Shown here: positions 964-64,000 of the stretch, piece after piece
Numbering within the stretch: position 1 is the first letter of the stretch
Layout: the number at the start of each line of letters is the position of its first letter
NCBI RefSeq assembly: GCF_025602895.1
Contig: NW_026516241.1
Span: 124,001-188,000 of the forward strand
From: Polychytrium aggregatum
Taxonomy: Eukaryota; Chytridiomycota; Chytridiomycetes; Polychytriales
DNA: 64,000 nucleotides
Reading direction: 5' to 3'
Made by a program: the position numbers and the translations under genes
The notes under the pieces: model-generated
The model's input: only the letters and a program-made list of their open reading frames with translations
The model's database searches: none
What the model was told of the DNA's origin: nothing

Positions 964-2036
964 ATGAAGTTCATTTCTGCCCTCAGTGCCCTGGCTTTCC
1001 TGGCCGCCCTTCCCGCCCAGCTTTCGGATGCAACCCCCGTGAAGCGAACCTCAACTCTTGCCGTCCAGTACAACCTCTTTGGTTGGGGTCGCAACGGCGA
1101 TACCTTCCGTATTCCCGCCACAGCCACCAGTGGCGGTCCCAGCCAGGATCCTCGCTACCTGTGGTTCTCTGTCAGCACCAACTTTGCCGATACCGATGCC
1201 GCCACGGGCCAGCCCAACACCTTTGCGTAAGTATCACAGCTGTATGTGTTTCTCCAGAGTACTGTGTTGCGTGAGACTCGCATACACAGCGAGATGCCAA
1301 TCATCCGAGGCGCTCGTTCTGTTGGCAAATGTCGGTCATTGTGTACTGTGGTCGTTGGCCAGTAAAACCCACAGGCTTACAGTTCGCAGCAATTCATGTT
1401 TTGTGGGAGTCAATGCTCACCGAATCATATATGCTTTGAATCCCTAATCTTCCTCCTCCCTCAATGCACAGCATCTCGCTCCTGCGCACCTCCCAGGACG
1501 GCCTTGGCAACCCCCAGATCCAGGTCTTCCCGACCACCCAAACCAACGCCAACCTCCGAGCCAACTACGTCGGCTACTACTTTGCTTATGGAAGTATTCC
1601 CGGTCTCTATGTGATCCAGGTCAAAGGTCCCTATGTCAATGGTGTCTCCAACCCCTCCACATTCTCGGTTGCCAACAGCACTGCCCTGCACGCTGCTCTC
1701 TATCGCCCGCAGTGTGAATCGCCCAACTTCAGCATCCCCACCGACGACTTTGGCAACCCCATCAAGACCACTCGTGGCCAGGTCCTGTGCAACTACAACA
1801 CCAACTTGGCCGATATCCAGTCGACAGCCAACTACAATGAGATTGTCGGCTTGCTGTCCTCGTGTCTCTCGGACGCGACTCCCGCCGGCTGGATCGCCAC
1901 TGATGCCACAACCAGCTCGTGGAGCGGCACATCCAGCTACTACGTCCAGGTCAACCGAGCTACCAGCACTGGCCAGACCTTGACCGCCACCTCGGCCAGC
2001 GCCACCTACGCCGCTGTCTGTGTCCGTGGCTCGTAA
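964..2036 (+). CDS. Predicted secreted protein of unknown function
   Basis: Two exons, 964-1226 and 1472-2036, are joined by an intron with GTAAGT donor and CAG acceptor; phase is kept and the product is 275 aa. The N-terminus has a Lys at position 3, a hydrophobic Ala/Leu-rich stretch to about residue 20 and then a Lys-Arg pair, which reads as a signal peptide with a possible dibasic processing site. The mature part is rich in Ser, Thr, Asn and Gly and has few Cys. An AATAAA signal lies about 175 bp after the stop. I do not recognise a family. An extracellular or cell-wall role is inferred only from the signal peptide and composition. Confidence 0.7.
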
Positions 2037-2376: not shown

Positions 2377-5301
2377 TCAAAAAGCCCTGCCGCGACCGCC
2401 TCGTGCGGCCCCGCGGCCCCGAGAGCCACCAAATGAGCCCCCGCGGGACGAGCCGTTATATCCGGCGCCATTGGTATATGGCCGTCCGTAGCCTCCTCGT
2501 GCGCCGCCAGTACTAGCGCCGCCTCGGCCTCCGCGGCCGTAACTGCTTGATCCCATCTTGTCCTCGAGCTCGGGTAGTTCCTTAAGAATCTCCAGGGTGA
2601 CTCCACGGCCATCGCGCCATTCAATGCCCGTGATGAGAATGCGGGCGGTGTCGTCTTCGTTCTTGAGGAGCTCGATCTTGTCGGAGACAATATCGACAAC
2701 GACGCCGCAGTAGTCCTTGGTGATGCGCCAGCCACCCGTGTCTTCGTACGTCAGGGCCGGGAACTGCCGCTGGACGATAGCCCGGACATACCCGGCGTTC
2801 TGGATGGGGTTCGCGGTGCGGAAGAGCAGCGTCATGAACCCTTCGTTGGCCGTCAGGAGCGAGCGAGCCGGGAGCGGCTTGGTTGTGTTGCAGTAGAGAG
2901 CAAGGGCAGCACACAGAGCCTTCTCGCCGTCGCCCTTGTAGTGGTTGAGGAAATGCTTGGCTGTGTCCTTGAAGTAGTCCAAAACACTTGGATGGATGTC
3001 CGGCAACTGGTCGAGTGTATCGGCGGCACGGGCACTGATGATTTCGGAGGGTTGGGGTGCACCGACGGTGGTGAACTTGACGCCGGCCCGGCGAGAAATG
3101 TTCTGCAGCAGATACTCCTGTTGAGGCTTATAGAAGGTGATGCAGGTCCCCGACTTGCCAGCACGGCCCGTTCGGCCGGAGCGGTGGATGTATGTTTCGA
3201 CATCGCCTGGAGGCTCACAGTCTGTGTTGGCCCAGGACAAGCATCAGCCTGATTAGCGATTAGCGGCTTCAACCCGTTGTGCACTTGGTCTGAGGGCCGA
3301 GAAGGGTGCTCAGGCTGAATGGACACGAGCGCCATACTTACTGATGACCAAGTCGACTTCGGGGATATCGACACCGCGTGCACAGACGTTGGTCGCGACC
3401 AAGACCCGGAACTTGCCCTCTCGGAAGCCCTGCATCGCAACCTCACGCTGCTTCTGCTGGACGTCTCCGTGGATGACCTGTGTGCCCATATTGGCGAGCT
3501 TTTCGTTCAGTCCCAACTCGCTAGCCTCGCCCTTGGTTTCGACAAAGATCATGGTTCGGCCGGACCCGCCTCGTCCATAAACGGCAACGATGTCGCCCAG
3601 AATTGAGGTGCGGTTCTGCCACCGGGAGGGGACGCACAGGTGGCCAATGTTGGAGTTTGTCTTGAGTTTGTCGTTGCCGATCAGGTCGATGGTAACCTTG
3701 TCGGGCTTCATGTACTTTTTGACGGCCTGGGTAATCCACACTGGCAGGGTGGCCGAGAACAGCAGGGTCTGGTGCACGGCAGCGGAGGCTCCCGCGCCCT
3801 GTTTCTGCTCGTCGACTTGCTGCAGGATCTTGTCCATGGCATCTGCGAACCCGATATCAAGCATCTGGTCGGCCTCATCCAGACAGATGAACCTAAACGA
3901 GAGAGGGGAAGGAAGAATGTCAGCCGAATGGTTGCCATCGGTTGGTCCACAAGGAGGTGTCCGTCAGCAAGCGCCACCGAGGAAGGATTAACGCAGGCTC
4001 TCGGCTTCCACCGGCCAGCTCGGAGCTGACACACGGTGACTCACTGGAGCTGTGCGAGTTTGAGGTTGCCTCGTTCGACATGATCGATCAGCCGGCCTGG
4101 CGTGCCAATGACAACGTCGACACCATCGCGCATAGCGTAGTCTAAGATGTCCGTCGTGATCATGATAGGGACGGCATTAATTCGAGCGGCGATATCAGTC
4201 GTCAGCAGAGAGACGAGAGCGAGCGAAGTGAAATAGGCGCACAGCTTTTGCGGAATGGTGCTCTTGATTGAGCACTGGCCAAAACGCAACATGAGGGTTG
4301 CTACGAGAATGCTTACATTGCGTGTCGTATGGCACGCCGCCATAGACGCAGGTGTGCCTGATCTCTCCGGTGCCGACGCATTCAAAATCTCGGGCAATCT
4401 GGAGGGCCAGTTCGCGGGTCGGGGTCATGATGAGCGCTCGAGGGGCTCGGCCACGACGATCAAATGCAGATCGGTCCTTGTTGCGCTCGGCCTTGAGCCG
4501 CTCCACAATCGGGAGGGCAAAGGCGAGAGTCTTGCCCGTGCCGGTGCGAGCACGGCCGAGGACGTCTTTGCCGTTGTAGACATGCGAGTAGGAGGCAGCT
4601 TGGATCGGGAAGAGGGCTTTGATGCCTCTTGCTTGGAGAGCATCCAGGGTGGATTGGCTGAACTTGTAGTTGGAGAGAAGGAGCTCGGGAGGCGTGCTTT
4701 GATCGGCGTCGCTGTCGGCGGCAGCCTCCTCGACCTTGATGAGCAGTGCTCCATCGGGCTCGGCAGAAGACTCGTCGGCAGACGGCTGGGTATCCTTGGC
4801 AGAGGCTTTTTGCTTCTTGGTCTTCTTCTCGGGCTTTTCGGACTCCTCCACGGTCTCGGTCTTGGCCTTTTTGGTCTTGGTCTTGGATTTCTTTTCGGAT
4901 CCTGAGCCAGTGACGTTTTCCTTGTCGGAGTTGTCCGCACTGGCGGCGGTGTCGTCGCCAGATCGCTTGCGCTTCTTCTTGGAGCCGTCCTCGCTCTCAA
5001 CCGCTGGTTCGGACTTGAGGGTCTTTGTCTTCTTCACCTTGGCTGACTCTTGTTCTTTGGGCTCGTCGGGTTTGGAGTCGGCCGTGCGCTTCTTGCTCTT
5101 CTTGTCCTTCTCGGGCTTGTCGAACTTGTCGGACTTTGATTTTTTGGGCTTTGCTTCAGTCTCGTCTGTCTCGGACTTGGGCTTTTTCGACTTTTTCGGC
5201 GATTTGTCGCTGCTGGTCTGTGCGTCGTCTACCTTTTTCTTGGGCGACTTTGCCGACTTGGGCTCAGCCGGCTTGTCTTTGCTTCGGGTGAGAGCAACCA
5301 T
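2377..5301 (-). CDS. DEAD-box RNA helicase, nucleolar Gu/DDX21 type
   Basis: Four exons on the minus strand (4317-5301, 4045-4141, 3342-3892, 2377-3221) join in phase to 825 aa. The first ~215 residues are a Lys/Ser/Glu-rich charged tail of nucleolar type. The helicase core follows, with ARTGTGKT (motif I), PTRELA, GTPGR, DEAD, SAT and HRSGRTGR (motif VI). Between the core and the end is a region resembling the GUCT domain of DDX21/DDX50. The C-terminus is RGG/GGR-rich and likely binds RNA. By family it should act in rRNA transcription or processing in the nucleolus. I chose the ATG at 5301 because the longer upstream frame to 5469 is Pro/His-rich with no similarity. The nucleotide-binding and unwinding motifs all look intact. 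Confidence 0.9.
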
Positions 5302-16583: not shown

Positions 16584-18555
16584 CGTGAAGGACTATGACT
16601 CTTGCTGCGGAGGCTCTATGAGAGGGAGGAGAGGGGCGAAGGAGGATGCGGGCTCGCTGCTCTGTCGGATAGGTGCGTCGTCCAGCAACAGAGTCGGTGT
16701 CGTTGGAGGGCCGAGAGAGCGCAGCGAAGGTGCCTGGCAGGATGTGCAAAATCGTTGGCAAGAAAAAAAAAAAAAGTTCGTATGCCACGTGCGCATCAGC
16801 TGAGACAACTCCGACGGCATGCGGGGACGGATTGCGCAGCAGCTGTCGGGCGGTTCCCACGCTTGGCTGAGAAGGCAGTGAGACACACCGTCGCATTCGG
16901 GCACAAGCGCACCGAACTGGAATCGCCCTCCCTATCGTACCGTCAATCCAGAAAGAAACGGAACAGTCACTCTCTGGCGCCAGCGACACAAGTCCGCTGA
17001 TCCGTAGGCTCCAGTGGGTAAGCCATGCGGTTGTTTCCCGTCCTGGTTGGCAATCTCTCTGTGAAGTGCATCCACTCCACTCTCTGGACAGCTCCATGGT
17101 GTATCGATATCAAGATGCTCGGCCTTATCGAGTCGCTTGGCTTCCCGGCACTGTGAGCACACCTGGAGATCGAGTCGCTTGCGTGTATCCATCTGAGCGA
17201 GAGAGCGTCCTTGATTCAGATCCAGAAACACATCACAGAATGGTCATGGCCAGCGCGCGATGTTTTGAGTGATAACATTCACCAATGATCGAAACCTGGA
17301 GTGTCCCGCATTTTATTGGATCGGATGTATCGTGCTCTCAGCCGAGAAGCCCAAGTGGGTCAAGTCGTTTCCCTGGGTGTCTGTCCCATGGCATCTCATC
17401 GACCGAATCCATCACGGCACTGCGAGCGCCGATCGGCGTCATTGAGTCTGGTGACCGATCAACACATATACTGCGCCCCGTTTCAAAAATGGGCGGACAT
17501 TATCTGTCGACCTCAATCAGCGACTGTCTGCCCTCTTCACTTCCAAGCCTCCCCTCACCCGTGCTTCAAGAGCGGCACAGTCCCTCCACAGTCTGCGATA
17601 TCGGTCGCCTGCGCACACTCGAGCAACGGAGAACAGTCGGCAGGGCTCGGTTGTGTGGACATATCCCTCTATTAAGAATCGCACAATCCAGAGATCCCGA
17701 TTCATCTGCTGCTTGCCTTGAATCCCTCTCTCTCTGTGTGTGCTTGTTATCCGTTATAGGCTCGGGGCAACGTCCTGATTGCACACTATCCCTGCGCTTT
17801 GCTGCTGTTTCTGTTGCTGCTGTCGCTGTTGTTTTTGTTGTTTTTTGTTGCTGTTGCTGTTGCTTCTGCTGCTTGCCGCATTCTTTTGTTCGAAGCCGCT
17901 TGGCTTTGCTTTCGACCGACGCTCCAACACCACCCTGCTCTCGTTCGTGGCTCTTCTCGCCCCTCCTCATCAATATCAAACCGCGAGATTTTCTTTCGCG
18001 GTATATTTCATTTATGACGTGTGGAAAGTAGAGAGCAATTCGGTCATCTCCAAAAAAAAAAAAAAAACAGCCTTCGAAAAAATACGAAAAGATAAAGCAA
18101 AGGAAGACACAAGGTTGCTGTCACCGGCTCCAGAAGCTATCCCTTTCTCCTCTGCATCCCACACCCTCCCCATCCGGCCATTGCTCAACATTCGTCCGAG
18201 TACCACGCGGCCGCTCTGAAATATCTCGGCATCGCACCGCAGACCCGAACTGTACGTTTCTTCGCGACACAGAGCCGAATTTACTCTGGGGGAGTGGTGT
18301 CCGAGGCCATCAACGTTTCAAACTCCCACGCTTCTTCTGCAATCGATCATAGTATCCAGGTGCTCTGCATACCAGGGAGCATTTTTTCTTTTCTATCACC
18401 GTTCACTCCCATCGCTTCCACCGCTCCCATTACTCGCTTCGTCGCTGCCCTCGTTTCCAGCACTGAATCAATTCGCCGACGCTGCAAAATAACACGGCTT
18501 TGTTGTTGACGACTCTAGAATACACTCGGTCCCATCGCCAACGCAAATCCACACA
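16584..18555. other. Long intergenic region with pyrimidine-rich leader
   Basis: About 2 kb between the divergent RLP24 and WD40 genes. It holds a GTTGCTGTT-type trinucleotide-rich tract (about 17800-17880), A-runs at 16770 and 18050, and CT-rich sequence near the WD40 start. No coding gene is supported. Confidence 0.4.
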
Positions 18556-33370: not shown

Positions 33371-33399
33371 TGGAGCCCGGCAAAGGACCGATGGGTTTA

Positions 33400-33425
33400 C
33401 AGGCAATCCAATAAAAAACGGGACA
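33400..33425 (+). repeat. Left terminal inverted repeat
   Basis: 26 bp starting CAGGCAATCC and ending AACGGGACA. It pairs imperfectly with the right end; the inner 13 bp match perfectly apart from A-run length. Confidence 0.8.
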
Positions 33426-33483
33426 CCCGGGTTTTTGACCATTCATCGAATATTTTGTTACCCAATGTTATCGCGCGCTGGCC

Positions 33484-34134
33484 ATGACCATTCGCCACAC
33501 ATCCGACTTTCGCACCGCCGCATTGCGATGCTACGCCCTCATCCATAGCCTGCGTAAGGTTGCCTCCATATTCAGTGTATCCAAGAGCACCATCCATCGA
33601 TGGCACCGAGGATGCAAGCTGGATGACCCATCCCGGGTCCCAGCTCGCAGATCCACTTTCTTCGAGCAGGCATGTCCAGTCATTCGCACCCTGATTGAAC
33701 AGGACCCGTTCCAGACTGGTCCTGTGTTGCGATGCAAGCTCGAGTCCATCCTCCAGAGGAAAGTATCACTCTCACTCTGCCACACTGCCATCCACCGAGC
33801 AGGTCTCTCACACAAGAGGGCAACACACCTCTACAAGTCCAAGCGACTGGATGAGCGAGTGGCACAGTTCAGGGACCAGGTCCGCTCCATCGACCCACGA
33901 CGATTCGTTTTTGTCGATGAGACAGGGATCAGGAGATCCATTTTCCCTCTCTACGGATACTCACCGAAGGGTGCTCCGCTTCGCCAGCGCAATCACATGA
34001 AACACAAGTCTGTCTCGGCTGCATTTGCCATCAACCACTCTGGTGTGCTGCATCGAGCGCCGAGGATGGTCAGTGATCTTCACCCCACCTGCCTCGCCCG
34101 ACTTCAATCCCATCGAGAACTTCTTTGGGGTTGA
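33484..34134 (+). pseudogene. Broken IS630/Tc1-mariner (DDE_3) transposase
   Basis: A 216-aa frame. Residues ~1-50 form a helix-turn-helix (ASIFSVSKSTIHRW). A linker leads to the first catalytic Asp in FVDETGI, followed by GYSPKGAPL. After the strand SAAFAINHSGVL the sequence jumps. From about 34061 a different frame encodes GWSVIFTPPASPDFNPIENFFG, here split as GWSVIFTPPA and SPDFNPIENFFG, which is the block with the last catalytic acid. The stretch that should carry the second Asp (normally a DNA..H motif, about 40-50 residues) is missing. An internal deletion with frameshift therefore inactivated the enzyme. The sequence is otherwise well preserved, so the lesion looks recent. Confidence 0.85.
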
Positions 34135-34290
34135 GTCCCCACCGATTTGGGGTTGAGCTCCTCCAATTTGGAGTTGAGCTCCCCAATCACGCCGCCATTT
34201 TGACGCTCAAATCCCTGGCTTGAACCTCTCGGCGATTTTTGAACAGGTCGTTTCCCCAACCAGCCCGCGCAGACGGGTTCCTGCTCTCGG

Positions 34291-34298
34291 GTATAAAT
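34291..34298 (+). promoter_or_regulatory. TATA box of the Fanzor gene
   Basis: gtataaatg about 130 bp upstream of the Fanzor ATG, inside the element. Before it lie three imperfect gggttgagct/ggagttgagct repeats (34128-34185). Confidence 0.5.
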
Positions 34299-34426
34299 GC
34301 CACACCTTCGTCCTGCTGCTTTCATCCCTCATCTCGCCTTGATCTGATCATCGCGCTATTGTACGATAAAAAAAAGTCTCTGTTCTGACCAGTACCACTG
34401 GCAGGCATCCAGCATCATCTGCCCCC

Positions 34427-36799
34427 ATGCCTCCGAAGCGTAAGGGTACCGGTGATGGCCAGCCTCGGCCACCCAGGCCCAAGAAAGCCAAGTCACAGTC
34501 GGAGCCTGTCTCTGGTTCGTCTTCTGATCCCACGCATGCTTGTTTCTCTGTTGCTCCGTCGCTCACCACCACTGCTTCTGCAGATCCAATGGATGTCGAT
34601 CCCACCGAGCCTGGTCCATCTACTTCCTCGAGTACCGGCAAGCGATGTCGCCAGTGCGATGGCACCGATCACGAACGTTGCAACACCAACAAGTGTCCCA
34701 AATACCGGCCCCTCAAGAGTTCTGTCGTCCCTCTCGTGGATGGAAGGTCATCCGCCCCTCAGTTCAGCTGCTTCAAGCAGACGATGGATGGCTGTTGTCT
34801 CAATCCCGCTCTCCGCGACAAGATCCAGGCCACCGTCGAGGCCATGACCCAGATCCAGTTCGAGGCATCCAGGCTGCTCAACCTGCACATCCTCCGGTGC
34901 ATCGAGCAGGATCTTCCCGTCCCCGTCATCTCCAAGGCCACCCCTGCTTTCGTTCGCCAATGCTTCACGATTGTCGAGGCCGGTGCCCTCTCCCCGACCG
35001 GGGACAATGAGAAATACAACGAGCATCTGGTCGCTTCCTTTCGCGGCTACCAGACCTCTCGGCACGCAGACCTGCCTCCGGCCCCTCGTCTGCCTGATGG
35101 TGCTCACAGTCAGCTTCTCACACTGGCTGTCAATGCCTATGCCACCAACTGCACCACCCACCTCGACCTGGCCTACTGGCGACTCCTTCGTCGCTTCTGC
35201 GCTACCGTCTTCCCAGCCAACAAGCACAAGCACGAAGCCATCGAGGCCTGTCTCGAGCTCTTCGAGAAACCAGGGCAGACTCCACCCAAGGCCGATCTCG
35301 AGTTCCTCTATCCAGACTTTGGCCACGTCCTGGACGAGTTTCGGTACAGCAACGACCAGGACCGCTTCCGGGCCCTCCATCGCCTCTCACACCATGTGAG
35401 AATCCTCGCCCGAGACAAGATGGTCGACAATGTCCACAAGTGGATCGACTGTGACATGCCCGCCCTCCGAGTCACCGAGCTGCAGCGCCAGGCCAAGCTG
35501 GACAAGCTCACTACCCAAGGCATTCCCTCCGACGACAAGAGGTTCACCACGGCCAAGTCTGAGCTCGGCACCACCAAGTCCAAGATCAACAAGCTGGCCG
35601 CCAGGATCAACTGGGCACTCAAGCAGCTCGCCGTCGACACTCCTCCGGCCGTGTGCACGATGGTCCCTCTGTGCACTGCCACGGCCAAGTATGTCAAGAT
35701 CGACACCGTCACTCTCTGGCAACTCCTTGACACCGAACATCGTCTTGGACTCACCAGGGACATGCTCAAGGAAGAAGGTGAGGACGGTATCAACAACCAG
35801 GATCGTCTCTGGCGCAGTTGCTTCAAGCTGCGTAGTTCCCTCTTCCGTGACCGGGATATCAATCACAAACTGTTCAACTACGAGATCAGTACCGATGGAA
35901 TTGGATGCACCATCGGTCTCGTCAAGTTTCTGCCTCGAACCGATCACACCGAGACCATCGAGCCTCCTCCGACTGCCGAGCAGCGTATCCAGGCCCACAT
36001 CGGCGACCCAGACCCCGATCGCACCACTTGGATTGGCATCGATCCTGGAGTCGGCTCCATCTTCACGGCGATCATCCAAGCACCGGGCCACCAAGACGAG
36101 GTGGTCTCATTCTCCAATGGCCACTACCAGCACATGTGTGGCCATACGTCCAACACCAAGTGGCACAACACCATGAAGTATCGACTCAGCATCGAGACCT
36201 GGATATCGACCACTCCCTCGCCCAAGGTGTCGTCCTCGGAGGCCTTCAAAGTCCATCTCACCCATGTCCTGCGACCGGAGCTTCGAGTGCAGCTCGACTT
36301 CCACCTTGGCAAGAAGGCCCGTCACCATCGCTTCACGGGCCACAGGAGACGCCAAGTGGCCGTCGACAGGATGTGCAAGGCCGTCCTGAAGCACGCCCCG
36401 ATACGGACCGATGTGGTGATCGCCTTTGGCAATGCGTCATGGCGACAGGGCAAGGGCTATGCATCCAGCCCTCGGAGGCAGCGATTTGCTCGGTACTTTG
36501 AGCAGTTCGAGCACCACCGACGCCGTCCCAATCACCATCATGGAAGCGTCAGGGTGGCCTCGACGAACGAGTTCAACACCTCACAGGTGTGCACCAAGTG
36601 CCTGGAGCCAGTTCGGTTGGAAGGACTCGATGCGCCCAGTGTTGCGAATTCCCACTTTGTCAGGAGCTGCAAGAATCCCAGCTGCCGGACAGTGTGGAAT
36701 CGCGACGTCAATGCGGCGCGCAACATGATCGCAGTGTGCAGGTCGATTGTGGAGATCGAAGAGCGACCGGCGGTCTTCACTCGGAGGCTGCCAAAGTGA
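34427..36799 (+). CDS. Fanzor RNA-guided endonuclease (TnpB-like)
   Basis: An uninterrupted 790-aa frame without introns. The first ~30 residues hold two basic clusters (PPKRK and PRPKKAK) that look like nuclear localisation signals. A zinc-knuckle-like set follows (C74, C77, H82, C85, C90). The C-terminal half is a RuvC nuclease: D539 in GIDPGVGS and D760 in NRDVNAARN. The usual RuvC-II Glu position reads AFGN (666-669), while E715 sits in TNEFNTSQVC just before the zinc ribbon C722-C725-C748-C753. That relocated Glu is the hallmark described for Fanzors. Known Fanzors cut DNA guided by an RNA encoded at the 3' end of the gene. The protein is longer than most characterised examples. All catalytic residues are present, so activity is plausible. 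Confidence 0.92.
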   Translation: MPPKRKGTGDGQPRPPRPKKAKSQSEPVSGSSSDPTHACFSVAPSLTTTASADPMDVDPTEPGPSTSSSTGKRCRQCDGTDHERCNTNKCPKYRPLKSSVVPLVDGRSSAPQFSCFKQTMDGCCLNPALRDKIQATVEAMTQIQFEASRLLNLHILRCIEQDLPVPVISKATPAFVRQCFTIVEAGALSPTGDNEKYNEHLVASFRGYQTSRHADLPPAPRLPDGAHSQLLTLAVNAYATNCTTHLDLAYWRLLRRFCATVFPANKHKHEAIEACLELFEKPGQTPPKADLEFLYPDFGHVLDEFRYSNDQDRFRALHRLSHHVRILARDKMVDNVHKWIDCDMPALRVTELQRQAKLDKLTTQGIPSDDKRFTTAKSELGTTKSKINKLAARINWALKQLAVDTPPAVCTMVPLCTATAKYVKIDTVTLWQLLDTEHRLGLTRDMLKEEGEDGINNQDRLWRSCFKLRSSLFRDRDINHKLFNYEISTDGIGCTIGLVKFLPRTDHTETIEPPPTAEQRIQAHIGDPDPDRTTWIGIDPGVGSIFTAIIQAPGHQDEVVSFSNGHYQHMCGHTSNTKWHNTMKYRLSIETWISTTPSPKVSSSEAFKVHLTHVLRPELRVQLDFHLGKKARHHRFTGHRRRQVAVDRMCKAVLKHAPIRTDVVIAFGNASWRQGKGYASSPRRQRFARYFEQFEHHRRRPNHHHGSVRVASTNEFNTSQVCTKCLEPVRLEGLDAPSVANSHFVRSCKNPSCRTVWNRDVNAARNMIAVCRSIVEIEERPAVFTRRLPK

Positions 36800-36898
36800 T
36801 CTGTTTTATTTCTTGTGGCTTTGCTTGACGCAAGCACAGCACATACTACATGTTCATGGAAACGGCTATATTGTCCCGTTTTTTTTCTGAATAAAGTG
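36688..36898 (+). ncRNA. Putative guide-RNA (omega RNA) scaffold region at the right end
   Basis: In TnpB and Fanzor systems the scaffold RNA comes from the 3' end of the nuclease gene and the transposon end, with the guide read from the adjacent flank. Here the last 211 bp (ORF 3' end, stop and 99 bp to the right end) are also what the 308-bp copy retained at about 98% identity. A perfect 6-bp hairpin with an ACG loop lies at 36822-36836. The guide of this copy would be the flank starting TAGCCAGAAC. Boundaries and structure are inferred; no transcript evidence is available. Confidence 0.5.
36872..36898 (-). repeat. Right terminal inverted repeat
   Basis: 27 bp, read inward as CACTTTATTC then an A-run and CGGGACA. 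An AATAAA (36890-36895) lies within it and could serve as polyadenylation signal for the Fanzor transcript. Confidence 0.8.
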
Positions 36899-37700
36899 TA
36901 GCCAGAACGTGCGCGGATCTGTCTGGTCCGTTTCTTCCATCGATGGAAGAATCGCAGTCCGTCCCACGGCGACAATGGCCTGGCAGGGCGGTCTCGCTGC
37001 TGCCGAAGCAGTTCTTGTGTGGCCGTGGTGCTGCTGCTGGTGGGCTTGCCGGCGACGGGCCTGCGCTCTGCAAGGCTGACGGTGCTGGTGCCCGAATGCC
37101 ATCCCGAAGGCCAGCCTGAATGTCACCCCGAATGCCAGCTTGAATGCCAGCTTGAATCGCCGCCTCGGGCTGCTGAGGAATCGCCTGATGGCCTGGCGGG
37201 CTGCTGGCCCATGCCTCCCCGATCAGGCAATGGGCTGGAAGCCAGCAAGCGAATGGGTGGTATACAACAGGCCGCTGGACGGAAGGTTTTGGCTGAGCGT
37301 GTCCGCAGCCTTGCCTGCGCGGCATCCTTCGAGAACGATGGGCCAGCAAGGGTTCCTTCCAGGCCGCGATTCCACGCAAAGGCCCGGCCAGATGGTGGCT
37401 GGCTGCAGCACATCGCTGTCTTGTGTCACACGACAGCCCTCTGGGATCGATGTGATCTCGGATGTACCTCAGATTGTCCTGCTCCGGCCTGCTCCGGCCT
37501 GCTCGACTCTCCGCGAGGAGCGGAGGGGACAGAGATGCGCCCTCAAACCAAGGCACTGCTGGCTGGCGGCGGCTGCTTTTACTCTGCATTTACTCTGCAT
37601 TTACTGCATGCACAAGGCTATCCTTTTTCAGGGTGAGTGCGCCCCGTCGCTGTCGATGGGTGCCGTTCGCCATATATTCTCTCGAGGATGCTGTGGAATC
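36899..37700. other. Intergenic with short imperfect repeats
   Basis: Right flank of the Fanzor element. An imperfect 12-bp repeat of the type gaatgccagctt lies at about 37096-37160. No gene is recognised. Confidence 0.4.
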
Positions 37701-58159: not shown

Positions 58160-61100
58160 ATGATTACCCCTCATGCACTGGTCCAGGAACGGCCCCAGAC
58201 CCCCGGTGGCCGTCCCCAGACACCTGGAGCCCGTCCCCAGACTCCGCTCCTCCAGACTTCGGAAATCAAGCAATATACCAAGACCCTCGTTGACGCAGCT
58301 CCGGCCCATCTTGTGAACGAGTCGGACCAGAAGCTCGAGGACGACGTCAACCTCCTGGCCAAGCTCCTGGTCGACACCATCAAAGAGCACTCGGGCATCG
58401 CCGGCGGTCATCCCGGTAAGCCAGGCTGTGTCCGGCGCTGCCAAAGCGTCGCCTTGATCGCGCAATGTGCTGCGGGCAGAGGCTGCCCAATCGGCAGGGC
58501 AACAGCTTCCCGATCGGCAGAGCGCTCTGCAAGGCTGGCTGCTGACATGATCTGGCCGCCCTCCCTTCGGCACCGCCCTGCATGTCGCTGTCGCTGACCA
58601 TGTCCTTCCCGTGGGCCTGCGCACATGTCCCCAGAGCGCCTGATCTCGATCATCGAGGGTGTGCTCGCTGCCAGCCATCTCTACTTTGACGCCCCCTCGG
58701 ACGAGTCCTTCGAGAAGCTCGTCACCCTCATCCAGCAGGTCGTCACTCCCACCGAGTACCTCGAGGTTACCCGTGTGTTCCATGAGTTCCTGACCCTGGC
58801 TGAGGTTGCCGAGCGACAGCACAGAGTCCGCCGCTGGCGCGGCTATCGCCGAGGTTTGTGCCACCACCGTCCGCGCTCGCCACCGCGGGGTCTATCTTAT
58901 CTCGCACATGGCTCTCGCCGCGCTTCTCGCTGCGTCTCGCTCACTCGTCTCGCCCTCTCTCCCTGTGTGTGTGTGCTGTGGCGCCGGGGAAAACCCTGGT
59001 GACCTTCCTGGTGACCGACCTCCTGGGCTCGCCTTGGTGGCTCGGCTCGCCGGCTGCTGATTGGCCTGTCGCTCCGTCTGCTCGTGCGCCCATGTCCTTC
59101 GCGTCGTCTCCGGCCACAGGCGAAAACGATCTGCACTTCCGCCAGACCTTCAAGGATGCATTCAAGTTCCTCCTCGACAAGGGTGCGTATCAGCTTCCGA
59201 TTGAGCAGAACGGCCGTGGTCGTGTGTGTGCCAAGATATGTCTGGGAAACGATGAGTCGGGACAACGGCTGTCGCCCGATACCCTGCTTCCTGGCCTCGA
59301 TAGTCACGCCATCAAAACTCTTGGCTGGGCACTTCGTGCTACTCCGGTCTCCTGCCTGAACGAGCGATTCACATCTCTTCGCTTTGCCAATCTCGTCCCA
59401 ACCAGGCTTCACTGGCGAGCAGATCCGCGAGGAGCTGACCAAGCAGCACATCGAGCTTGTCCTCACGGCCCACCCAACTCAGGCTGCCCGCCGCACCCTC
59501 CTCACCAAGTACTTCAACATTGCCCAGCAGCTCGAGACCCGTGACCGCACTGTTCTCACACCCGCCGAGCATGCCGACATGATGGATGCCATTCGCCGCG
59601 AGATTGTCGGCGCCTGGAGAACCAACACTGTCCGCCGCATTCGTGTAAGTGCTGGTGTCTGCTCGGCACGGGCATCCCGTCGCTGTTTGCATATGGCTCT
59701 TGCCTCTCCATCGAGGCGGCTTGCTCAGGTTGCCACAAATGCCTCGCTGCAGATTCCGCTGACAATGTTCATCGACTGTACACCGTCCAGCCCACTCCCG
59801 AAGACGAGGCCCGTGGCGCCCTCTCGGTCCTCGAGAACAGCATCTGGAAGGCTCTGCCCAAGTTTATGCGCACCCTCGATGCCACCCTCGCCGAGTACGA
59901 CATTGAGCCCATTCCTGTCGACAAGTCCATCATCAGCTTCGGAAGCTGGATCGGCGGCGATCGCGATGGCAACCCGTTCGTCACTCACGAGGTCACCACC
60001 GAGGTCCTCAAGCTCTGCCGCTGGCGCGCCTCGGAGCTGATCTACAAGGAGATTGATCTGCTGCTCTTCGAGCTCAGCATGACCCGCGGCTCCGAGGAGC
60101 TCATCGAGGTGGTCTCCAAGATCCAGCACGAGCATCTCGTCGGCAGCAGCCGTGCCACCAACCTCAACTTCCCTCGCGGCAACATTCCCCGCGACGAGCC
60201 CTACCGTGTGCTGCTTGCGCCCCTGCGTGACAGCTGCAAGGTGACCGAGGAGGTAAGCAAACTCGCTATCCCGTGCGTTTCTATCCTCGAGGCTGTGGTA
60301 CTGACTTCTGCTCATCTTCTTGTGTGGCAGTATCTTTGCCGGGCTATCGGTGTCTCCATCCCTCCAGAGCGCCCTGCCAACTTCATTGGCAGCCCCGAGC
60401 AGTTGCTGGATCCCCTCAAGCTCTGCTACCGCAGTCTCGTTGCGTGCGGTGACCAGGTCATTGCCGACGGCCGTCTCAAGGATCTGATCCGCCGCATCTC
60501 GGCCTTTGGTCTCTCCCTCCTCAAGCTTGGTGAGTCGTCGTGTGCTGCCAAACCCTGCCGGGCTGGCAACCACTCCAAGCGTAGCCTGCCCCCCCTCCCT
60601 CAGGAAAGCAGATATGGATTGCAAACCCCGCTCTACCGCGCTCTAACTCCCCACTCGATTCGTATTTGCATTATCCGCCCCAACTCTGCAGACATCCGCC
60701 AGGAGTCCGACCGCCACAGCGAGGTCTTTGACTACGTCACCGAGTGGCTCGGCCTGGGCACTTTCTCCGAGTGGGAAGAGCAGAAGAAGCAAGAGTGGAT
60801 GGTGGCTGGTACGGTGTTGCTCGCTCGTTGCACTTGCAGTGTGCAGGCTCCGACCGCGATTTCGATCCATCTCCGCTACTCTACTCGGGTATTCCTCTCA
60901 ATCGACTCACCGTGTCGATCACACCTGCGATTCGCACCGACATGTTCTGACCGTTCTCCCCTCTGCAACCATGCCTTCAGAGCTGAACAACAAGCGGCCC
61001 CTTATCCCCGACAACTGGCCCGACATTCCTGGCGCTGGTATGGCTCCAGGACACGCTTTTGCAGCTCTCTTTGCATCCCATCTGCATCTGTCTGTGTCTA

Positions 61101-63168
61101 GTCTTCTCACTTGTTATGCAATTCTCTGTTTGCCCACACAGAAAACGTTCCCGACACTGTCCGCGAGGTCATGCGCACCTTCCGAACCCTCACCCGAGTC
61201 GGCACCGACGCCCTCGGCGGCTACGTCATTTCGATGGCCCGATTCGTATGTGCATCCGCTGCCGGTCGCTTTGCAGACACTTACAATGTCGATCCAACCC
61301 CAAGCACGCACCTCTGACCCCGCTTTTGCATCCTACACCTCCACACCCATGCCCTCGGATGTGGATTTCGATGCCGTCATCATCGATTACTTCCCTCAGC
61401 CCTCCGACATCTTGGCTGTGGCACTCCTCCAAAAGACCGTCGGTATGGTCAATCCCCTCCGCGTGGTCCCGCTCTTTGAGACCAAGGCTGACTTGGAGCG
61501 ATCGTCCTCGACCATGGAGAGGCTCTTCTCGGTCGAGTACTACCTCAAGAGCATCAACGGCAAGCAGGAGGTCATGCTTGGTTACTCTGACAGTGCCAAG
61601 GATGCCGGCCGCTTGACCTCGGTTTGGTCCCTGTGGGAGACCCAGTCCAGCCTCGCTGCTACCTGCGACAAGTTTGGCGTCCATCTCACGCTCTTCCACG
61701 GACGTGGAGGCAGTGTCGGTCGTGGTGGAGGGTACGTTGGGTGAACAGGATGTGGGGCGGTGACTTGGACACGGCCCTCCGGGCCCAGCCGCAGCATCCA
61801 CCGGCGGACCTGAGCTGCAATCGTCTCTGCAACGTGTGCATGCTGCTTCCGATCGATGCTGCTCTTGCTAACGCCGAATCGCATCTGCACCACAGTCCCC
61901 AGCATCTCGCCGTTCTTTCGCAGCCCAGCGGTACCGTCAAGGGCACGTAAGTAGCATTTCTTTCTTTCTCTGAGTCTGCGACTGGTTCGGTCAGGACCTG
62001 CGTCCGCTGGCTGGCCTCGCCTATTCCACTGCACTCTCCGACTCACGACGCCTTGTATTTGCCTCAGTATGCGAGTCACCATCCAGGGCGAGATCATCGA
62101 TAACCACTTTGGACATCCCGGCACGGCCGAGCAGACTCTCGAGCGTTACGCCACCGCCACGCTGATTGCCACCATGGCTCCTCCTGAGGCCCCGAAGAAG
62201 GAATGGCTCGAGACGATGGCCCGCATGTCCGAGGTTCGTTGAGTGTGGCAAGATGGATGCATTCGTGGTGTGTCTGATGGCTCGTCCTTCATCATCGACA
62301 AGCGAGAGTCTGTGACGACGAGCCATGACTGCATGCATGCACGCACAACTGACCGGCTCGGCTGCTTGGCGGCGGCGTTGCTGTAGATCTCTTGCAGCCA
62401 CTACCGAAGCGTTGTCACCGGCGACCAGGACTTCATCCCATACTTCCACGACGCCACCCCGCTCCGTGAGATCGGCATCATGAACATTGGCTCGCGACCG
62501 GCCCGCAGAAAGGTTGGCGGCGGCATCGAGACCCTCCGCGCCATTCCTTGGATCTTTGCCTTTACCCAGACCCGTGTCCATCTCCCTGTCTGGCTCGGCA
62601 TCGATGCTGCCATCCAGCAGATGAAGGACGAGGGCAAGATGGATGTCCTCAGGGACATGTACTACAACTGGCCCTTCTTCCACAGCACCCTCGATCTCGT
62701 CCAGATGACTCTGTCCAAGGCCGACCCCAGAATCGCCGGTGAGTTGAAAGGCAGGCGGCTTCTCAAGCTGACCGTCTCTCCCTCCAGCACTACCAACCAT
62801 CCTGACCACACAACTCACGATGTTTCGGTTTTATGTCTCCGCCAGCCTACTACGACCAGTGCCTGGTTCCGCCCGAATACCACTCCATGGGTGTCAAGCT
62901 CCGCGGCCACCTCCAGAACTGTATTGACCTCGTGCTGGAGGTTGCCGAGCAAGACCATCTCCTGGCTTCGGACCCCGTCGTCGCCCGTGCCATCCACTCC
63001 CGCCTTCCCTTCACGGATCCCTTGAACCTCATCCAAGCCGAGATTATCCGCCGGATTCGCGTGGAGCCGACCGAGGACGGATCTGTCGACGAGCCGCACA
63101 AGGATCTGATGGACGCCATGATTGTCACCATCCAGGGCATCGCCGCCGGCATGGGCAACACCGGCTAA
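58160..63168 (+). CDS. Phosphoenolpyruvate carboxylase (EC 4.1.1.31)
   Basis: Fourteen exons (58160-58415, 58635-58853, 59120-59182, 59406-59644, 59791-60252, 60331-60529, 60692-60808, 60981-61037, 61142-61245, 61400-61731, 61896-61946, 62068-62233, 62387-62738, 62846-63168) join with all phases matching, giving 979 aa, within the usual PEPC range. It carboxylates PEP with bicarbonate to oxaloacetate. Visible are the catalytic LTAHPTQ (H202), GGDRDGNPFVT, GYSDSAKDAGR, FHGRGGSVGRGGG (671-683), GTAEQTLERY and the invariant C-terminal NTG. The N-terminus has three RPQTPG-type repeats with possible proline-directed phosphorylation sites instead of the plant phosphoserine motif. Spliceosomal introns show it is a genuine nuclear gene. 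The enzyme is unusual for a fungus. Confidence 0.93.
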
Positions 63169-63495
63169 GGCTCCCATGGAGGGAGAGGGTCTGAAAATTT
63201 GCTGGAGCGGTTGTGTTGTGCGGAGGTTCCTTGGGGCATCCAGCATTATCACATTTGCTCTTTTTTCTCTCTCTCTCACTTTCCATGGAGGTAGATCGAC
63301 ATTGGGGAAGGGGACTCCACATGTTTATTGACCCTCTGCTCTTTCGATATCGCTTTTTCAATCGCCCTTTCTCTCTTTTCCTCTCTTCATAGTCAAAGGA
63401 CTTTCTGTGCCCGGTGAGGCGAGGTGGCAACATTGTCGCTGGAACTGGAGCCGACAGATCGCCACACACACACAAGCCAATATAGCATATCATTA
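63169..63495. other. 3' flank of PEPC
   Basis: T-rich region with CTCTCT runs; the 308-bp element is inserted 327 bp after the PEPC stop. No gene seen. Confidence 0.4.
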
Positions 63496-63803
63496 CAGGC
63501 AATCCAATAAAAAACGGGACACCCGGGTTTTTGACCATTCATCGAATATTTTGTTACCCAATGTTATCGCGCGCTGGCCATGACCATTCGCCAGACGGTG
63601 TGGAATCGCGACGTCAATGCGGCGCGCAACATGATCACAGTGTGCAGGTCGATTGTGGAGATCGGAGAGCGACCGGCGGTCTTCACTCGGAGGCTGCCAA
63701 AGTGATCTGTTTTATTTCTTGTGGCTTTGCTTGACGCAAGCACAGCACATACTACATGTTCATGGAAACGGCTATATTGTCCCGTTTTTTTCTGAATAAA
63801 GTG
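63496..63803 (+). mobile_element. 308-bp internally deleted derivative of the Fanzor element
   Basis: Flanked by TA on both sides. Bases 63496-63593 are identical to 33400-33497 (98 of 98). Bases 63594-63803 match 36688-36898 with three substitutions and one fewer T in the T-run. Everything between, about 3.19 kb including most of the transposase and the Fanzor nuclease, is missing. The junction shows short similarity (cca/gac) between the two breakpoints. It keeps both terminal repeats, the first 14 bp of the transposase ORF and the last 37 codons of Fanzor, including the hairpin. It is MITE-like and could be mobilised by a related transposase. Confidence 0.92.
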
Positions 63804-64000
63804 TACAAACGGTTGCGGAGCCTTGATCGGCCCAGCCCCAGAGTGTTCCCGAAGGGTGTTCTCGGATCAGCCGGCGGTCGGATGACTCGCGGGTTGTTCG
63901 GCGAGTCGTCAACAAGCTCCTCACTTGGCTTTTGCTGGCTTTGCCTGCGATGCAGCATCCGGATTCTTCCAACCGCTGTGCCCAACTTCTCACAGATCCC
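63804..64000. other. Right flank of the short element
   Basis: Unrelated to the right flank of the long element, which confirms the element boundary. No gene recognised. Confidence 0.4.

Follow-up and report, generated by a model that had tools for sequence, protein, structure and literature searches.

A gene-less Fanzor-element copy in Polychytrium aggregatum and the left-edge scars of its family as possible traces of Fanzor-guided homing

The closest described systems include the ghost elements of Spizellomyces punctatus, where ghost Spu-1 is found at 134 loci versus 42 loci with a full or partial Fanzor (Saito et al. 2023, PMC10432273). In the available part of that work, the gene-less ghost guide RNAs are reported to function with SpuFz1 in human cells, and a supply of guides in trans is proposed for the Spu-1 ghosts. 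There, CA stands to the left of Fanzor and ghost elements alike, the measured TAM is CATA, SpuFz1 cuts after 16-17 and 20-21, and the biological role of the RNA-guided cleavage is stated to be unknown (PMC10432273). For the Tc/mariner group of PGv-1, PUl-1 and PUl-4, Fanzor-only versions with the same terminal inverted repeats (TIRs) have been described (Bao and Jurka 2013, PMC3627910). With TnpB on plasmids, either the element was copied back or the empty plasmids were lost (PMC11870625), while the small RNA of the SfAV Fanzor1 reaches approximately 15 nt beyond the target-site duplication (TSD; PMC10711439).

The window analyzed here is a 64,000-nucleotide stretch of the P. aggregatum genome, and it holds a 308-bp copy of the ghost kind. 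Ghost copies and the idea of guides in trans were already published for Spizellomyces (PMC10432273). Upstream of the copy, an exon of phosphoenolpyruvate carboxylase lies at 59866-61101 (PEPcase, E=1.8e-44). This enzyme is unusual for most fungi. The features of the short copy are as follows.

63494..63805, plus strand: 308-bp short copy (class M1) with a TA target-site duplication on each side; its junction occurs in 51 genome places
63492..63495, plus strand: ATTA directly left of the element, predicted TAM (family motif WTTA) from left-junction counts, with its role by analogy to CATA of SpuFz1 (PMC10432273)
63496..63521, plus strand: left terminal inverted repeat CAGGCAATCCAATAAAAAACGGGACA, an imperfect match to the right end
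63590..63597, plus strand: deletion junction with GCC microhomology; the combination of A 63593 and G 63597 occurs in 0 of 27 long copies
63593..63705, plus strand: remnant of the 3' end of the Fanzor ORF, approximately 36 codons (tblastn, residues 755-790) with the stop TGA at 63703-63705
63706..63805, plus strand: 3' noncoding right end, predicted guide-RNA scaffold including the TA of the TSD; RNA folds are weak support when taken alone
63778..63803, plus strand: right terminal inverted repeat with AATAAA at 63795-63800; 63790-63805 (16 nt with the TA) is invariant in 27 of 27 distinct M1 loci
63806..63820, plus strand: right flank CAAACGGTTGCGGAG, predicted guide and target, from the small-RNA extension of approximately 15 nt past the TSD (PMC10711439)

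The first-pass annotation of this DNA had read 63496-63803 as the two ends of a Fanzor element between TAs, and the alignment to the 3503-bp copy in the same window bears this out: both ends belong to a Tc1/mariner-type Fanzor element and are bounded by TA at 63494-63495 and at 63804-63805. The short copy matches the long one over the first approximately 98 bp (TA included) and the last approximately 214 bp, the GCC microhomology lying at 63590-63592 of the internal junction. One of the differences listed at that time stands, as the T-run of the short copy is one T shorter; instead of three substitutions, however, four were counted against the long copy of the window, at 63593, 63597, 63637 and 63665, the first of which sits at the junction itself. 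The long copy has three features.

33398..36900, plus strand: long family copy, 3503 bp with both TAs, from sequence comparison
33484..34134, plus strand: transposase ORF, truncated to 216 aa; other copies have 310 aa, with DDE_3 at E=7.5e-24 in copy L077
34427..36799, plus strand: Fanzor ORF, 790 aa, with the Fanzor1 motif and a Pfam Cas12f1-like_TNB match (E=4.5e-8)

This copy had been called intact, which is correct for the Fanzor ORF, open over 790 aa, but not for the transposase ORF, which has 216 aa here versus 310 aa in copies L067, L070, L077 and L078. The Fanzor1 motif, tested in the form given by Bao and Jurka, D-X(125,275)-[TS][TS]XX-C4 zinc finger-X(5,50)-RD, is complete and ordered in the window ORF: D539 is followed after 178 residues by T718-S719, then by CTKC/CKNPSC and by R759-D760. 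In one further Fanzor copy, L062, RSKC replaces CTKC. The match of the SpuFz1 chain to the window protein is weak (E=0.44), and a search of a large protein set for relatives found none at E<=0.001. Across nine open Fanzor copies, one of them with 736 aa, the mean dN/dS of 0.35 indicates that the copies are under purifying selection. DDE_3 in L077, a DD34E spacing judged by eye, the TIRs and the TA TSD are the marks of Tc1/mariner elements, and TA stands on both sides of 39 of the 43 insertions listed. Judged by these domains and ends, the transposon is of Tc1/mariner type and encodes a predicted DDE transposase together with a Fanzor1-like RuvC nuclease.

The family was followed through the genome (64.7 Mb, 418 contigs). 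A left-end 33-mer with up to three mismatches matched 331 places and the exact right 16-mer 309 places, with no matches for the reversed-pattern control of either search, so that family ends total about 310 to 330. Near-complete copies, taken as the 40 best-scored of 1163 candidates, have an identity of 94-99%. The junction of the 308-bp form (up to three mismatches) was found in 51 genome places, second copies of the same locus included, with 0 matches for the reversed control, and 27 distinct M1 loci were read. Two other deletion classes occur: M2 has its right breakpoint at reference position 3577 and lengths of 283, 316, 350 and 385 bp, while M3 is a 1114-bp form with breakpoints at reference positions 664 and 3300. 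By their breakpoints, both are deletions separate from M1. A repeated independent origin of the 308-bp form was ruled out by the single GCC-microhomology junction and the shared derived bases; 51 short copies with one junction point to one founder deletion and not to repeated selection for the guide end. The 308-bp unit belongs to a single ghost- and MITE-like deletion derivative, of which it is one copy, and the earlier view of it as a non-autonomous unit holds, since it is a deletion derivative present in many copies. As in ghost elements, both ends and the guide-RNA region are kept, the Fanzor gene is absent, and the copies are many; as in MITEs, the unit is short and non-coding and has TIRs and TSD in common with the autonomous element.

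Several fragments and older relatives were seen as well. At L046 and L050 (1501-1704 in both), fragments of the left end only stop at approximately reference position 203 and give way to other DNA, the one at L050 adjoining a Glyco_transf_15 gene, a member of a fungal gene family. Within the window, a decayed relative lies on the minus strand at 16850-17450, with a left end of approximately 75% similarity at 17238-17329 and a right-end-like TTCTGGATTGACGGTA approximately 385 bp from it, near the length of the M2 copy L100. At L017, an older right end (1167-1279, minus strand, 85% similar) is located directly left of an M1 copy; it has the terminus CTCTGGATACAGTGTA and lacks AATAAA.

At least the last 163 bp, comprising the final 20 codons of Fanzor and the 3' noncoding sequence in full, were kept in all 40 right ends sampled, whether long or short. 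The sample was drawn through exact matches to the right 16-mer: 39 follow one another among the first 100 matches listed, and one was chosen. The first-pass annotation had named as counter-evidence short copies that keep the TIRs but lack the guide end; none is among the 40 right ends anchored in this way. The retention of the guide end over three or four independent deletions lends weak support to selection. Among the 27 distinct M1 copies, diversity is 0.010 in the inner left part, 0.023 in the ORF remnant and 0.022 in the 3' noncoding part. Purifying selection on the entire guide-RNA region of short copies was not seen, as conservation of the 3' noncoding part does not exceed that of the other parts and only the last 16 bp stand out. 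By segregating sites, the exactness of the last 16 nt with the TA across the 27 loci is modest (P about 0.03).

These counts bear on one alternative, namely an ordinary MITE, a deletion derivative moved in trans by the transposase of the family, whose guide end would have been kept by chance in one founder and in whose fate Fanzor would have no part. The single junction in 51 places, the many copies with intact TIRs and TA TSDs, the presence of 310-aa transposase ORFs and the lack of extra conservation in the 3' noncoding region all fit this account, and a MITE-like ghost is a modest reading that is sufficient for the 308-bp unit itself. We consider the ordinary-MITE account unlikely, because it leaves unexplained the one-sided WT before the left TA, the left scars derived from the right flank, and the alternation of ghost and long versions at one site, all of which are described below.

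The predicted fold of the right end pairs TACATGTTCA (63753-63762) with TGAAT-AAA-GTGTA (63793-63805), the TSD included. The fold scores are weak (z -1.43 and z -1.97), the 5' side of the pairing has mismatched variants, such as TACCTG in several copies, and covariation among the 43 distinct right ends, which are too alike, gave no support for a scaffold. The pairing with the TSD nevertheless suggests a resemblance to the Fanzor1 RNAs for which a scaffold containing the TSD is reported (PMC10711439). If the TSD is part of the scaffold here as well, with which the fold agrees, the guide of the short copy would begin CAAACGGTTGCGGAG and not TACAAACGGT, as had been proposed earlier. It might be, and this is a guess, that the AATAAA, which ends three bases before the right TA, sets the 3' end of the RNA within the flank.

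For each of 30 insertions, 45 bp from either side were joined and used as a query; the right flank of L079 was cut. Both flanks were found twice for 13 loci, L079 was found twice by its left flank only, and the remaining 16 insertions occur once in the assembly. Five further two-copy loci were recognized by identical right flanks among the fetched copies. The two copies differ in length at 10 of these 18 loci, and an empty allele was found at none of the 18. With second-copy lengths taken from the flank spacing, a 308-bp copy is opposed by a version of 3.6-3.7 kb at L002, L003, L018 and L022, by one of 1.1 kb at L026, and by one of 283 bp at L005/L051; at L080, 1.1 kb is opposed by 3.6 kb, and L074, L076 and L078 hold two long versions of unequal length. 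The second copies of six loci were fetched, the ends of five and the 1.1-kb one whole.

At several of these loci, private variants of the element ends are common to both versions. The left end TAGTGG is present in the 308-bp and the 3.6-kb version of L003, TAGAGGT in the 1.1-kb and the 3.6-kb version of L080, and a G with a run of six T near the right end in both versions of L018, while the elements of L005 (1499-1810) and L051 (1501-1783) are identical except for an internal patch (M1 versus M2-like), with small differences in the flanks. For the pairs at L002, L022 and L026, no such markers were found in the fetched second copies. It follows that at least L003, L018, L080 and L005 each go back to one insertion, the content of which was changed in place. 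Site content of 308 bp, 283 bp, 1.1 kb and 3.6-3.7 kb has therefore been exchanged in place between locus copies. The M1 marker AGACG, present at L003 and L022 among others, occurs in 0 of 27 long copies, so either the content was supplied by a different M1 copy, or M1 was replaced by a long copy. Between the two copies of five loci whose versions are of equal class, 0-3 substitutions and at most 34 gap positions were counted in 3.3 kb. Old, fixed insertions would likewise leave no empty alleles, and older transposition is compatible as well.

It is very improbable that assembly artefacts or segmental duplications account for the two copies of a locus and misassemblies for the size differences. 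The genome is repeat-rich and in 418 contigs, and most long versions were sized by flank spacing with only their ends read; against this, the same private terminal variants and flanks stand in short and long versions, both kinds recur at several loci, and at the L026 site the 1.1-kb version was sequence-read from end to end. A segmental duplication, moreover, would leave intact the argument that one insertion changed its content.

In 14 aligned long copies, reference positions 36-98 and 3300-3640, the parts in common with short copies, are far less diverse than most of the interior. Diversity is 0.007-0.02 in these shared end segments and up to 0.1 inside, and it looks as if the ends had been homogenized by conversion. 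Ectopic gene conversion among the approximately 300 dispersed copies, by itself and without any link to a nuclease, is a real though less than even possibility as the source of the allelic differences in content. Besides this pattern of concerted evolution, it would account for AGACG at sites whose other version is long, although no long copy of the 27 carries it, and for the elements of L005 and L051 that differ by the internal patch alone. Nothing contradicts the exchange as such, but conversion leaves the scars and the motif unaccounted for, and a difference at 10 of 18 two-copy loci suggests a process driven by breaks.

These exchanges also qualify the proposal of the first-pass annotation that the short copy supplies a guide in trans and so links one nuclease to many dispersed loci. 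The supply in trans is plausible here, because ghost guide RNAs work with SpuFz1 (PMC10432273). New targets are not simply what results, however: of the 13 short-copy loci present twice, 6 have a longer or different version as their second copy (7 do not differ), and the guide of the ghost at those 6 is already borne by that version. At L072 (C4), the right flank directly outside the right TA begins cagtcgataagaaagaaacgggac, which resembles the left end of a related element. The predicted guide of this copy would thus match a transposon end and could possibly act against other copies.

The left side of the insertions carries a motif beyond the TA. Of 48 intact left junctions, 47 have a T directly before the TA (16 of 17 within the M1 set), and 39 have A or T at -2. 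The right side shows no such bias, A occupying the +1 position behind the TA in 9 of 67 right flanks. A one-sided WT before TA is not expected from a transposase that treats TA symmetrically. By analogy with CA and CATA in S. punctatus (PMC10432273), WTTA would be the TAM of this family. With 0 empty sites among the two-copy loci, the T at -1 may or may not predate the insertion.

The left terminus itself is other than TACAGG in 15 of the 47 distinct insertions for which both flanks were read (46 plus L066). In 11 of these 15, or about a quarter of the 47, the altered bases are the start of the element's own right flank, with left-edge and right-flank pairs such as GTGG/GTGGC, TGGT/TGGTC, TCCCG/TCCCGC and CAGCGTGCCAA/CAGCGTGCCAA, among others; the altered left ends of L029, L061, L073 and L088 do not match their own right flanks. 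The summed common prefix is 52, compared with 6.2 expected in 200,000 shuffles of the right flanks (p<5e-6, with the register of L068 picked to fit), and when the comparison is confined to the 11 altered ends in register, those that mismatch being counted too, it is 29 compared with 4.6 (p=1e-5). Random decay of the altered left ends was dropped as an explanation once the altered letters turned up in their own right flanks. The scar joints end in short microhomologies with CAGGC, and the tails are 1-11 nt long. Left ends without the initial C were found in 47 places by pattern search, with the letters read for 15. A blind prediction held for the one new left end checked, GTGG (C24:628948-628968), which pairs by spacing with the right flank GTGGCAAA of L099; GTGG starts 2 of 67 distinct right flanks.

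Since the set of 47 insertions was gathered by the exact right 14-mer and is blind to right-edge scars, the one-sidedness rests on the 40 top BLAST hits for the 308-bp unit and on the end counts of the junction places. Among the former, trimmed ends number 9 on the left and 0 on the right, or 7 of 38 and 0 without two second copies, with a 41st fragment (85%) left out. Among the 51 junction places, the exact right 14-mer is present in 42 and the left 6-mer in 31, and the left/right difference amounts to 14/42 versus 3/31 (P=0.025); the 9 places without the exact right 14-mer lie outside the right ends read.

The order left flank-TTA-r1..rn exists only in an empty site, so that a scar means a broken empty site that was later filled, unless r1..rn was copied from the right junction. 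Such copying is what a templated insertion would do, in which transposase cleavage begins at the left end and the flank ending in TTA then anneals to the TA of the right junction within the same synaptic complex, copies r1..rn and is rejoined to the element, with Fanzor unneeded. The scars do lie at the expected transposase cleavage site TA/CAGG, are short and end in microhomology. The scheme would, however, require that the left end is always cut first, as mirror scars at the right end are absent from the 40 best BLAST hits, and it does not by itself account for the WTTA motif; we regard it as a doubtful explanation. A cut to the right of the TAM, on the other hand, should leave the left edge with a tail and the right edge clean, which is the pattern observed, and tails of 1-11 nt fall inside a cut at about 15-20 nt and agree with it.

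We therefore lean, if only slightly, towards Fanzor-guided homing into empty WTTA sites, with the ghost persisting as a site occupier through protein supplied in trans. In this scheme, the right end would be transcribed into the scaffold with approximately 15 nt of the right flank as guide, and Fanzor protein from any intact copy would cut the unoccupied allele (WTTA plus right flank) approximately 15-20 bp right of the TAM. The element would then be copied into the cut site as the break is repaired from a template that carries it. The right side would be copied through and stay perfect, while the left broken end would have a heterologous tail r1..rn, usually trimmed and sometimes kept via the CAGGC microhomology as a scar. 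Full-length content would be swapped for ghost content by ectopic conversion or by a switch of template in the course of such repair, and the ghost would last as a site occupier whose own guide protects the site. Both versions of L003 are scarred, so the scars do not show homing by the ghost itself. That the left scars are natural footprints of RNA-guided Fanzor homing in a eukaryotic genome, where sites stay occupied and coding and ghost content is interchangeable, has in our estimate just short of an even chance. In the literature listed, outside whose coverage many subscription papers lie, no paper was found on Fanzor homing scars or on ghost and long versions replacing each other at the same site.

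If homing is true, Fanzor would act natively as a drive that keeps its sites, with ghosts parasitizing or sharing it. The scar pattern predicts from sequence the TAM, the cut side, the retained tail and the template, and could be applied to genomes with many Fanzor insertions. With element positions stable and their content fluid, the counting and dating of ghost or MITE copies of nuclease-bearing transposons would have to be altered.

In comparison with known systems, ghost Spu-1 resembles the present family in that inverted repeats and the guide-RNA end are kept without the Fanzor gene, and in two conserved bases left of the element, CA there (TAM CATA) and WT before TA here (PMC10432273). 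As far as the available part of that work describes it, Spu-1 differs by a conserved region of approximately 550 nt, inverted repeats that differ at seven positions, and no transposase found between them, whereas the ghost described here is a direct deletion of an element with transposase and Fanzor, alternates at one site with the long version, and comes from a family with left-edge scars. PGv-1, PUl-1 and PUl-4 likewise combine a mariner-type transposase, a Fanzor1 and a TA TSD, while gene-less copies with the guide end, allelic exchange and scars are absent from the available part of their description (PMC3627910). For the SfAV Fanzor1, TIR and TSD are within the predicted scaffold, as the fold suggests here (PMC10711439); that element, however, is from a virus, has two copies and a measured RNA, whereas the present family was read from sequence alone. 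The homing, retention and plasmid gene drive of TnpB share with our proposal a guide that records the insertion site and an empty site that is cut beside the TAM (PMC11870625). Those are prokaryotic IS200/IS605 elements with a peel-and-paste TnpA, while the family in P. aggregatum is a eukaryotic DDE element, for which the process would be known from its natural scars alone.
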